DNA of 64,000 nucleotides from contig OX621164.1 in assembly GCA_951640195.1 (NCBI GenBank), forward strand, positions 911,098 through 975,097, read 5' to 3'. Position numbers and translations under genes: made by a program. The notes below the pieces were generated by a model. It did not search any database. It had not been told where the DNA came from and was given only the letters and a program-made list of their open reading frames with translations. Source of the stretch: Porpolomopsis calyptriformis (Eukaryota; Basidiomycota; Agaricomycetes; Agaricales; Hygrophoraceae). Below are positions 47,707-53,386 of this stretch, piece by piece (positions within the stretch are counted from its first letter, which is position 1; the number at the start of each line of letters is the position of its first letter).

Positions 47707-49128
47707 ATGTCTCAACAAGAATACGAAGCCGATCAGAGCGTTCCCGCACCTGGACCCAGCAACATCCCCCCTACCATTCAAGAAGAAGAAGAAGACGTCG
47801 TCCCATTTAACATGGAACAAGAGCTCAGAGACCTAAGAGCACAAATCGACCAATTCCGTGGTTGGTACTACAGCGAAGTCGACATCAATGACGAACTCCG
47901 AAAGGAATTAAAAGCTCTCAAAGAAAGTCGACAAGAAGACTCAGAACCAGCCACCCCTCCCCCACGACGACGATCTGTACTTCGGGGACCTGGACTTTCC
48001 CCCTCGAATCCTTTCGTTTACCCTGCAAGAAGAACCCAATCCGTCCAACCTCCTCTCCCATTGACCTTTCCCACTCAACTACCTACCCAGATGACTGCTC
48101 CCCCTGCACTTCCAGCCCCCACCAAAATCAAAATCGCCGATCCAACTGAATACGATGGAACTTCAGAGAAGCTTGAAGATTTCATTCATCAATGTCGACT
48201 CAATTTTGTGGTCAAAGACTACAATGACAAACAGAAAATCATCTATATGCTCTCTTATCTCGGTGACGGCAATCCACGGGCTTGGGGACGACTGTTCACG
48301 GAAGGAGCTGATAGAACGAGGAATTTCGTGTGGGACTACGCAACGTTTTTGGACGATTTCAGGGAAGCTTTCGGAAGGATTAACCCAGCAGCGAAGGCGC
48401 AGATCGAACTAGAGAAAGTGAAGATGACAGGAACGATTGAAGACTACAACCTTCGATTCATGCAACACGCAGCAAGAACTGAGTACAACGAGGCCGCCTT
48501 ACTTCGGTTTTACAAAGCCGGACTTCCCCAGCCGATCCGAACGCGGATCTACTCGATGGATAATATGCCGTCGACCTTGCTGGATTGGACGACGAAAGCG
48601 GCCCAATTCGAAGAACAGTACCAGGAGCAATGAGCTGAACAAGCGTTGTGGTCAAGTCGAGACCAAAAAGGAAAGAAGTCTGAAGCCAAATCGAATCCCC
48701 GAGGAAACCCTTCCCACTTCACCACCACCACCACTTCATCCCCGATCAAACAAGAATCAAGAGAAGCCTCTCTCAAGACAGCGAAACGAGACAACTCCTC
48801 CATCACTTGCTACAACTGTGGCAAAAAGGGACATTACGCCAATGAATGTCGAAGCCCACGCGCTGAAGACGTTCCGGCACGTCAAGAATCCTCAACTTCT
48901 ACTCGAGGAAAAGGAGGAAATCGCGGTCGAAGCAAAGGACGAAATGTCTGAACAATCAATCGGGTTGATACGGAAGAATTGGAAGCGCGGATAGAGGAAG
49001 TATCAGAGGATGACGAAAAGGAGAAAAGGACGGCTAAGGACGACTTGAAGGATATGGGAATCGCGAATTGGGACAAGGAGAGACGGGCTGCGCTAGCTCG
49101 AGCGTTAAAAGAGCAAAAGGATTTTTAG
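47707..49128 (+). pseudogene. gag: gypsy gag with CCHC zinc knuckle
   Basis: ATG 47707 (MSQQEYEADQSVPAPGPSNI). The capsid-like part contains PTEYDGTSEKLEDFIHQCRL, KIIYMLSYLGDGNPRAWGRL, FREAFGRINPAAKAQIELEK and YNEAALLRFYKAGLPQPIRT, the usual retrotransposon gag pattern. The zinc knuckle CYNCGKKGHYANEC lies at about 48808-48849. TGA codons at 48631 and 48949 interrupt the frame and both fit CGA to TGA. The frame closes with TAG at 49126. The N-terminal 90 residues are acidic with a predicted coiled coil. Confidence 0.9.
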
Positions 49129-52100
49129 TCTGGCCAAGTGCTAAAAGCCCAAGCACTTTGGCTGTGTCCCATGTATGTGTACCACCATCTATGAAAAACT
49201 TTCGTTTTCTTGGCACACTTGAACAGGGCAAAGGCGCTCTCGAATTCTATCTTTGGATCACGAGTGCTGACAATCTTCAACGAGTGGCTATCATAGCACT
49301 CATTGACTCTGGCGCCTCAGGGAATTTTATTGACGAAGCATTCGTTCGTCAAATGGAGATATCGACCTATCCGTTGGATGAGGTTATACCGGTATGAAAC
49401 GCTGATGGTTCCGAGAACCGAGGAGGTCCCATCACGCATGACACAGACCTGTTTATCGAGGCACCAGATCTATCTTTTCGAGAACGAATCCGGTTGGAGG
49501 TCACCAACTTAGGAAAAAAGCAACAGGTCATCCTCGGCTTCCCATGGCTCTTGCGACACAACCCCACCATCAATTGGACAAAAGCCACCTTAACCTTTGC
49601 ATCTGGTGACACGCTGTTCAGTAGTATGCGAGTCGGAGTGTTGCCCCCACAGGAAGAACTCTACGTCTTTGATTCGAGTCTGAAACATGACTCCTTTATC
49701 CGTTTGGTCGGAGTTGACCACTCTCGACCAGTTTCCATCGAGGAAGACATCAAATCCTTCATTCCCAGTCGTTATCACAATTTCTGGTGTGTTTTCCATA
49801 CCGCAGAATTCGACAAACTTCCTCCTCAACGTCCCTTTGATCATGCAATCAACCTCTACCCGAACACCAAATTTCAAGTCGGGAAACTCTATCCCCTTTC
49901 CCCCTATGAACAGGTGGAACTTAATAAGTTTATTGACGAAAATCTCAGAACAGGTCGGATGCGTCCATCGAAATCACCACAAGCTGCTCCTTTCTTCTTT
50001 GCGAAAAAGGCTGAAGAGATCAATGCCAAAGGTCTCAGTGCTGGTCTACGTCCCATCCAGGACTATCACTACATCAACTCAAAAACCATTCCTGATCGTT
50101 ATCCCCTCCCCCTTCTATTGGAAATTCTCCAAGTGCCGAAGCTTGCTACTGCTTCGCTCTTCACTGTCATCAATATTCGATGGGGATTTAACAACATACG
50201 ACTCAAGGAAGGCAACGAATGGAAGGCAGCTTTCATCACCAATCGAGGACTCTTTGAACTGACTGTCATGTTCTTTGGACTACGAAACTCCCCGGCATCC
50301 TTTCAACGAATGATAGACATTCTCTTTAAACCTGTTCTGGACTCTGGCTGTGTTCACATCTATATTGACGACATTCTCGTTATGGGCAACACCCCCGAAG
50401 AAATCCGCCACTGGACCGACGAAACCCTCAAACTCATGGAGAAGAATCAACTATCCACCAAACCCATCAAATGCCAAATGGAGAAGACCTCTGTTACATA
50501 CCTTGGTACAATCATCAGCAAAGGTCAACTCGCTATCAACCCAAAAAAGGTAGACGCCATTATCAATTGGCCGACACCCCAAAAGCTGCGAGACCTCCAG
50601 TCCTTCCTTAGCACCACCAACTTCTGGCGTCGTTATATCAAAAGTTTCTCCTCAGTCGTTCGTCCCCTCTGTGGCCTTTTGCGGAAAGACCAACCTTGGG
50701 ATTGGTCTCCTTTGTGTCAAAAAGCCTTTGAACAACTCAAATATCTCGTCACTACAGCCCCTGTCCTTCTTACCCCATGGCCAGACCTTCCTTACCTCTT
50801 AGAAACCGATGCCTCCGATTTCGGTATTGGCGCAGTCTTATCTCAAAAACACGACAATGGTTGGCACCCCGTTGGCTTTTTCTCGAAGTCCCTACTCCCT
50901 GCCGAGTACAACTATCCTACCCATGACCTGGAAATGCTTGCGATCGTCACTTCCCTCAAATATTGGCGCTATCTTTTAGAGGGCGCAAGGGATACTGTAT
51001 TAATAAAAACGGACAATTTAGCGCTCAAGTATTTCATGCAGAACAGATCCCTCTCCAGACGACAAGCATGTTGGATGGAATTCTTAGGTAGATTCGACTT
51101 CAAGATCGAGTATTCCCCTGGAGTCAAAAACAAAGCCGATGGACTCTCCCGCCGACCCGACCACCGTCGTACAGAAAAAGAAGAACCAGAAGGCAAAGCC
51201 CTCCTCCCCCCCGAACGTTTCATCAATGCTATCATTTCCATGTCCGAACCCTCTTTCATGTCAAGACTTCGCTTCCCCGACTTCAATCAAATCCCAGAGG
51301 ACATTCGCATCAAATTATCCGATTCCTCTTCCGGCTACTCCTTCACTGACGGAATTGTGAGAGATGCAGGAGATCGTATTGTCATGCCAGCGGACGTATC
51401 GCTACACACAGAGATAATTCGATTGACCCACTCCCTACCCCATGGAGGCCATCCCGGAATCGAGAAGACACGTGAGCTTGTGTTGCGGAACTACACCTGG
51501 AGTAGTGCTGCCCCTGACATCCGTGTATTTGTATCATCCTGTCCGACCTGCCAACAAGTCAAGCTCTATCCTTCGAAGCCTGCAGGTCTCCTGGAACCCA
51601 TTCCCCCTTCGTCTCGACCTTGGGAAGAAATCACCGCTGATCTAATCGTGGAACTCCCCCAATCATCTGGCTACGATGCTGTCTTAGTCGTTGTCGATCG
51701 CTTTACCAAACGCGCTCATTTTATCCCGACGACATCGAATATTTCTGCAGAAGGAGTTGCAAAACTCTTTAGGGACAATGTATGGAAACACCATGGTTGG
51801 CCAAAGAAGATCATAACCGATCGAGGGACTCAATTCGCTTCCAAATTCGCGAAAGCTCTCAACACTCATTTGGGAATCATCTCCGGTCTATCCACCGCTT
51901 ATCATCCCCAAACTGATGGTCAAACGGAACGCACCAATCAAGAACTTGAATAATACCTTCGTTTATATACAAACTTTATGCAAGACGATTGGTCCAACTG
52001 GCTATCCCCAGCTGAATTCGCATATAATAACTGACAACACTCCTCGATGAAACACACTCCCTTTTACCTTGATACTGGCCAACATCCCTTCGTCCCATCT

Positions 52101-52807: not shown

Positions 52808-53386
52808 ATGCCTGCAGAACGCTCACACCAAACTGCTCGTAAGTCTACTGGTGGTCGTCCACCCCGCACTCCTCGTATGTCCACTGGAGGACAATCCCCT
52901 CGCCGCGCTCTCCCTCCGCTCGCTTCCACCTCTTCCGCCTACGGTGAAGCTGAGCTCGCCGGACAACTCTGGCAACATAACCATCGCGCGCGTAACCGGG
53001 ACCTTCCTATATGGCCAGAAGAAATCGTCGCGCCACCCATCCCACCCGAGCAAATCATCGAGTTGTTGCAGAAGGACGTCAAATACTACAAAGACGAAAT
53101 CGCGAGATTGAATGAAGAACTGTATAATCAAGGAATGAGCTTGGATGGAAAGAGAAGAGCAAGCGAGTATTGGTGAGAACAGGCCAAACACTGGGAGACG
53201 AAATATGAGGAAGTCGCAAAGGTACTTCCCCATCTTGATTCCCTAGCTCCTCTAGTTTTCCCAGGTCCGCTCATCATTCCCCCCGGTTCGTCGTCGAACC
53301 CCATCACCATCCCTGACGACGACGACACTTCCCCAGCCGACATTGTTTCCTTGTCAGCCACCGTTTCCAACAAGGACTTATTCTAG
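52808..53386 (+). pseudogene. gypsy ORF3 with a histone H3 tail-like N-terminus
   Basis: Extra ORF between pol and the 3' LTR, in another frame. ATG 52808 (A at -3) starts MPAERSHQTARKSTGGRPPR; residues 8-16, QTARKSTGG, equal histone H3 residues 5-13, and P-R follow at the H3 P16-R17 spacing. A second, degenerate unit RMSTGGQSPRR follows about 14 residues on. Then comes a Ser/Ala/Pro stretch, LWQHNHRARNRDLPIWPEEI, a predicted coiled coil (EQIIELLQKDVKYYKDEIAR and LNEELYNQGMS), a TGA at 53174 fitting CGA to TGA, a second heptad-like segment (KHWETKYEEVAKVL), and an acidic C-terminus (TIPDDDDTSPADIV) ending in TAG at 53384. An alternative upstream in-frame ATG at 52721 would add 29 residues. 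I know of no assigned function. Confidence 0.7.

Follow-up and report, generated by a model that had tools for sequence, protein, structure and literature searches.

The third open reading frame (ORF3) of an LTR retrotransposon in the window (the whole 64,000-nucleotide stretch of Porpolomopsis calyptriformis DNA analyzed here) very probably encodes, at its N terminus, a mimic of the histone H3 tail around lysine 9 (H3K9). ORF3 lies between pol and the 3′ LTR and begins MPAERSHQTARKSTGGRPPR; codons 8 through 16 of this stretch, QTARKSTGG, match H3 residues 5 through 13 exactly, as the first-pass annotation of this DNA had claimed, and the same nine residues are present in three H3 genes of the host itself. 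ORF3 is a non-histone protein with an H3K9-type segment. The interpretation as a histone-tail mimic, put forward in the same annotation, is well supported at the level of sequence because the motif is constrained across copies of the element and recurs both in a second element family (2b) and in non-histone proteins that contain several such segments.

The element and its third open reading frame

Pfam domains found in the element are the Ty3 capsid, zinc knuckle, reverse transcriptase (RT), RNase H, integrase core, SH3_Tf2-1, and chromodomain. Paired LTRs with a target-site duplication, the order gag-RT-RNase H-integrase, and a C-terminal chromodomain with an aromatic cage identify it as a chromovirus. 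Its features, in window positions, are as follows.

47162 through 53836, + strand: LTR chromovirus retrotransposon (Ty3/gypsy), from paired LTRs, the duplication GTCAG, and Pfam domains
47157 through 47161, no strand: left target-site duplication GTCAG, from the sequence at the element edge
47162 through 47531, + strand: 5′ LTR, with 6 differences from the 3′ LTR in 370 positions
47707 through 48951, + strand: gag, with Ty3 capsid and zinc knuckle (Pfam Ty3_capsid, zf-CCHC); frame broken by a stop at 48631 through 48633
49068 through 52688, + strand: pol frame with RT, RNase H, and integrase (Pfam); in-frame stops at 49395, 51951, and 52032
52518 through 52664, + strand: integrase chromodomain with a Tyr-Trp-Tyr cage (Pfam Chromo, HP1 alignment), kept in copies
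52748 through 52807, + strand: tract preceding ORF3, with TATAAT and a pyrimidine run in most copies shown
52808 through 53176, + strand: ORF3 of the present copy, from the ATG at 52808, 122 codons plus TGA (53174 through 53176)
52829 through 52855, + strand: QTARKSTGG (ORF3 codons 8 through 16), putative mimic of H3 residues 5 through 13, from translation, genome pattern, and conservation
52874 through 52906, + strand: second repeat RMSTGGQSPRR, Met at the K9 position, from translation and copy alignment
53045 through 53233, + strand: predicted long-helix stretch (residues 80 through 142 of the L002 model); the stop of the window copy falls inside it
53177 through 53386, + strand: remainder of the ORF3 frame past the TGA, to the TAG at 53384 through 53386, from the reading frame
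53467 through 53836, + strand: 3′ LTR, 370 bases, pairing with the 5′ LTR
53837 through 53841, no strand: right target-site duplication GTCAG, from the sequence at the element edge

The copy in the window is decayed, its gag and pol frames being interrupted by stops. ORF3 had initially been taken as a single frame from 52808 through 53386; this overlooked the TGA, past which the frame continues to the TAG. The window copy ends after 122 codons, and the commonest ORF3 length among the copies read is 192 codons. The tract immediately upstream of ORF3 is a possible internal promoter, judging from its sequence; some of the copies shown lack an AG ahead of ORF3, a point that bears on whether an ORF3 mRNA could be spliced. 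The element is inserted in other DNA (46204 through 47161 and from 53842), and on its left side two overlapping open reading frames end at the LTR. A Pfam scan of these two frames gave no match; we take them to resemble a transposase.

Similarity to H3 extends beyond the nine residues. Pro and Arg recur at the spacing of H3 residues 16 and 17 (GGRPPR in ORF3, GGKAPR in H3), and the degenerate second copy, RMSTGGQSPRR, follows the first in the ORF3 translation, both as previously described. A back-translated, degenerate QTARKSTGG pattern occurs at 70 places in the 33.5-Mb genome, in agreement with 67 ORF3 copies and the three host H3 genes, and the reversed pattern occurs at none; the exact motif is present in 67 of 93 ORF3 N termini. 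A chance match was rejected on the basis of these counts (70 vs. 0) and of the conservation across copies. Capture of a whole H3 gene was also rejected: the ORF3 of copy L002 has no histone domain (Pfam, E up to 0.1), and a long helix is predicted instead. No Pfam family exceeded the cut-off for this protein, the best being SlyX (E 0.056). A protein search with a single ORF3 returned 19 candidates and none at E 1e-3, and viral contigs searched with the ORF3 profile gave 83 stretches and no confirmed match; two peptide patterns likewise had no match there.

The AlphaFold2 model of L002 ORF3 is of low confidence (mean pLDDT 60). Residues 1 through 42 are predicted to be unstructured (mostly pLDDT <50), followed by a helix at 43 through 64, a confident helix at 80 through 142, and an unstructured tail; this low-confidence model has one long helix where a coiled coil had been suggested. 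The ends of ORF3 in this family (family 1) carry NPITIPDDDD.

Conservation of the H3K9-like segment and its second repeat

ORF3 copies were gathered by likeness to the 122-residue ORF3 rather than by the motif alone (105 matches, in which a single copy can be represented by several pieces). Of 100 element loci examined, the best match included the start of ORF3 in 93; 77 of these passed a helix-motif check, and 72 share a common register that ends in a stop at codon 193; 19 of the 72 contain internal stops and were retained, while copies with indels (L051, L054, L058, and the L091 group) were excluded from the dN/dS analysis. A subset of 59 comprises those members of the 72 with an ungapped pol end.

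Across the 72 copies, Gln8, Thr9, Lys12 (the K9 equivalent), Ser13, and Thr14 are each invariant (72/72), and the remaining positions are kept in 71 (Ala10), 62 (Arg11), 70 (Gly15), and 70 (Gly16). The exact motif, found in 58 of them, is encoded by 14 codon strings with varying third bases; 10 of the 15 amino acid changes in the motif are Arg to His or Cys, a CpG-type decay. Pairwise dN/dS (raw/CpG transitions masked) is 0.06/0.03 for the motif (residues 8 through 16), 0.11/0.04 for residues 1 through 7, 0.61/0.24 for 17 through 22, 0.21/0.06 for 23 through 28, 0.31/0.19 for the linker (29 through 45), 0.15/0.11 for 46 through 78, 0.04/0.07 for 79 through 122, 0.14/0.17 for 123 through 146, and 0.47/0.59 for the tail (147 through 192), these ratios being descriptive only because pairs are non-independent and synonymous sites in the helix region are nearly saturated. 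Synonymous divergence in codons 79 through 122 (pS 0.66) is far above that of the ORF3 tail (0.19) or the pol end (0.16), a pattern of sequence variation that suggests mosaic subfamilies.

In the 59-copy set the corresponding values are 0.036/0.016 for the motif, 0.15/0.08 for the chromodomain, 0.16/0.15 for the whole of ORF3, and 0.24/0.20 for the pol C terminus; the 32 copies among them without a stop in ORF3 or the pol stretch yield comparable values (motif, 0.042/0.027; pol, 0.27/0.24). The motif ranks second among 184 nine-codon ORF3 windows for fewest amino acid differences, and fifth (masked) or sixth (raw) by dN/dS when overlapping windows are included; helix windows near codons 97 through 100 are constrained about as strongly. 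Neutral drift of the motif in other copies, which had been named beforehand as evidence against mimicry, is not what the copies display: motif dN/dS is 0.02 to 0.06, compared with 0.20 to 0.27 for the pol C terminus. Both copy sets and the window ranking point to a segment kept by selection, with the pairs being non-independent. From its low dN/dS and that of the motif, ORF3 has the behavior of a genuine gene, one in which the mimic ranks among the most constrained parts.

In an explanation without functional mimicry, the N terminus would be a basic tail, rich in proline, that binds nucleic acid or directs nuclear import, or else a piece of H3 exon 1 that the element captured. The ORF3 tail is indeed basic. 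Furthermore, the reading of two host H3 genes (L102 and L103) fits an intron directly after codon 13 (ARTKQTARKSTGG), that is, after ARKSTGG and at the end of the ORF3 match, so exon capture is conceivable. However, a merely basic tail need not hold Gln, Thr, Lys, Ser, and Thr at 72/72 while third bases vary; the absence of the reversed pattern from the genome and the recurrence of the segment, near the ORF3 start in family 2b and in eight other proteins, also speak against this explanation, which we regard as quite improbable.

In most copies the sequence of the second repeat is P-[R/H]-M-S-T-G-G-Q-P-P-R. Met24 occupies the K9 position in 71 of 72 copies, with STGG next in most, and the preceding residue is Arg in half of the 72 and His in the other half (36 each). 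In the five copies of the L091 group the first repeat is kept and the GG of the second is lost; L096, a member of this group, also has Ser in place of Gly15. As in K-to-M inhibitors, Met stands at the position of the target Lys within the motif of the enzyme, and in fission yeast H3K9M traps Clr4 and blocks H3K9 methylation (PMC5030085). By analogy, the Met repeat could act as a methyltransferase trap like H3K9M, although the His that precedes Met24 in half of the copies may weaken such a trap. The sober alternative is that the repeat may be a worn duplicate; selection on Met24 cannot be demonstrated by synonymous change, because Met has one codon.

Related element families and proteins with several H3-like segments

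The integrase had been described as ending in a chromodomain with Tyr, Trp, and Tyr at the methyl-lysine cage positions, and this holds (Pfam Chromo, E 3.2e-13; HP1 alignment), the aligned residues being those that we take to form the HP1 cage. In 66 family 1 copies these positions are Tyr in 66, Trp in 64 (the other 2 are stops), and Tyr in 66. Searching the genome with the end of the integrase produced 848 candidates, of which 150 were scored, and 151 matches; among the 150 matches listed, 91 are 72 to 100% identical (family 1) and 59 are 53 to 56% identical. The ORF3 side was read in two of these 59 places, L105 (type 2b) and L104 (type 2a).

In family 2b, whose integrase end is ∼55% identical, ORF3 begins MPRQVLYARKSTGRRPPR; that of L105 begins MPRQVLYARKSTGRRPPRG and meets a stop 62 codons on. 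The genome contains 121 matches to the N-terminal part of the 2b ORF3, including partial pieces. Twenty of these and L105 were read, 21 N termini in all: every one keeps the Lys, and 11 have an uninterrupted ARKSTG. Among the 59 integrase places, the 12 that match query residues 3 through 212 are each followed closely by a 2b ORF3 match (compared by eye), and the other 47 have none among the matches listed; 2a-type elements may therefore outnumber 2b.

The one family 2a copy read (L104) has an ORF3 that begins MPATRSPSPQVAIRRAGR and lacks ARKS; it aligns to family 1 ORF3 at 25% identity over 80 residues (BLASTP, E 0.018). The L104 ORF3 is a long protein whose central part resembles a coiled coil; toward its end, PIDLDLEYPDDDD recalls a SUMO-interacting motif. 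The Tyr-Trp-Tyr cage is kept in the chromodomains of families 1, 2a, and 2b (one copy each of 2a and 2b), and the comparison of mimic with cage says little because all three families keep the cage. A simple rule in which the mimic accompanies every such chromodomain fits poorly with family 2a, where the cage is intact and the ORF3 motif is absent (one copy read).

These observations bear on the main rival to the mechanism favored below, namely that ORF3, methylated at the K9 equivalent, is bound by the chromodomain of the element's own integrase and serves as an assembly, nuclear, or targeting factor. The chromodomain of the MAGGY chromovirus binds H3K9me2/3 (PMC3350952); the element's own chromodomain keeps its cage under constraint (dN/dS 0.15 raw, 0.08 masked), and both motif-bearing families retain the cage. 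Against this stand the 2a copy, with its cage and without the motif, the eight multi-tail proteins described next, which have no chromodomain of their own, and the Met repeat, which such binding leaves unexplained. We consider this self-binding possible but rather unlikely.

A profile of 18 ORF3s retrieved two proteins, P0001 (E 3.2e-5, aligned over 18 columns only) and P0002 (E 0.14). Both contain three QTARKSTGGRPP-like segments, of which the first lies close to the N terminus. Using them as queries gave at least 4144 matches at E up to 10 (7980 candidates scored), and many of the 120 matches listed are H3 or H3-like. Besides P0001 and P0002, the sequences of 11 of the 120 were read: six are non-histone proteins of 180 to 223 residues with three to four segments (P0003, P0004, P0005, P0101, P0102, and P0103), and P0104, P0112, and P0116 look like H3. 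Named sources are Daedalea quercina (P0004), Armillaria solidipes (P0101), Peniophora sp. (P0102), and Armillaria ostoyae (P0103), with placement in the Agaricomycetes confirmed for D. quercina, A. ostoyae, and the genus Peniophora. P0001 through P0005 and P0101 through P0103 are thus eight non-histone proteins with three to four H3K9-tail segments, otherwise of low complexity and with neither an integrase nor a chromodomain of their own; from their sequences, they form a possible class of poly-H3-tail proteins. P0004 contains the YARKSTG form, as in family 2b, alongside the QTARKSTG form. The other two of the 11, P0117 (Allacma fusca) and P0006 (Cooperia oncophora), are named as animal proteins and also contain repeated H3-tail segments. 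In P0117 there are three of these, separated by acidic linkers, and the Pfam domains listed for it include no histone fold.

Possible mechanism and comparison with known systems

H3 residues Q5 through S10 are gripped by HP1 chromodomains, and R8 through G13 are read by H3K9 methyltransferases, of which the Pre-SET domain is a mark. The host genome has one Pre-SET place. A chromoshadow family search of the genome for HP1 found nothing and was uninformative, its controls being equally silent.

A decoy or trap directed against H3K9 methylation is, tentatively, the mechanism we find most likely from the sequence evidence; three observations favor it, namely the Met repeat, the lack of a chromodomain in the multi-tail proteins, and the pathway enzyme in the genome. 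The ORF3 N terminus would present a tail that carries a substrate-like K9 copy and an inhibitor-like M9 copy; a long helix follows, and possible pairing of such helices would display several tails together. These tails would engage the host H3K9 methyltransferase, the K copy as a competing substrate and the M copy as a trap, and would also engage H3K9me readers; with writers and readers so engaged, silencing of the element would be weaker. In this scheme we infer the exposure of the tail, the pairing of helices, and the engagement of H3K9 writers and readers. A broader proposal, which we offer as speculative and on the unlikely side, is that fungal chromoviruses and wider Agaricomycete proteins use H3K9-mimic arrays as an anti-silencing weapon, with this element coupling a K9 decoy to a natural K9M-type trap in one oligomeric protein.

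Methylated ORF3 could instead bind host HP1 and guide the preintegration complex to heterochromatin, or shelter the element there. The motif contains the HP1 epitope (Q5 through S10), and several tails per protein, as in P0001 through P0005 and P0101 through P0103, would give avidity; on the other hand, the integrase already carries its own reader, and the chromoshadow search, although uninformative given its silent controls, yielded no HP1. Such recruitment of HP1 seems improbable.

A retrotransposon gene selected to imitate the very histone site that silences retrotransposons would show an arms race at the H3K9 mark. ORF3 is a small protein, testable with peptides, and it links to the chromovirus integrases with an H3K9me reader. 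The Met repeat is a natural case beside the K-to-M oncohistones and, if it acts as proposed, would represent the oncohistone principle arrived at by natural evolution. Multi-tail proteins from Armillaria, Daedalea, and Peniophora suggest that the class may be wider.

H3K9 histone mimics are known from viruses. Histone mimicry is also known from host proteins (PMC10611923). Among the open-license PMC titles and abstract openings listed, none described a retrotransposon H3-tail mimic; mimicry as such is already known, and what appears to be new, within those listings, is a retrotransposon protein that does so.

With MAGGY-type Ty3/gypsy chromoviruses the element shares LTRs, gag-pol order, and an integrase chromodomain with a full cage; it adds an ORF3 with a copy of the H3K9 tail, which is not mentioned in the consulted part of the MAGGY paper (PMC3350952). 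Known H3K9 mimics, targets of G9a/EHMT, likewise have a short ARKS-type segment in a non-histone protein, whereas ORF3 has nine exact residues near its start, a second repeat with Met, and a place in a retrotransposon gene (PMC10611923, in the part consulted). The second repeat shares with H3K9M, a dominant inhibitor of Clr4/G9a, the Met at the K9 position before STGG; H3K9M is a mutant histone, whereas the ORF3 repeat is non-histone and has His in place of the preceding Arg in half of its copies (PMC5030085). Fungal transposon TET/JBP genes resemble ORF3 as mobile-element genes thought to counter host silencing but, as portrayed in the consulted part of the source, act on DNA methylation or bind DNA and involve no histone mimic (PMC12730594). 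The multi-tail proteins P0001 through P0005 and P0101 through P0103 share with ORF3 the K/QTARKSTGG and YARKSTG segments, several of them followed by RPP, APR, or similar; unlike ORF3, they have three to four segments each. Plant VANC is also a transposon anti-silencing gene, one that works through DNA methylation or DNA binding rather than histone mimicry.
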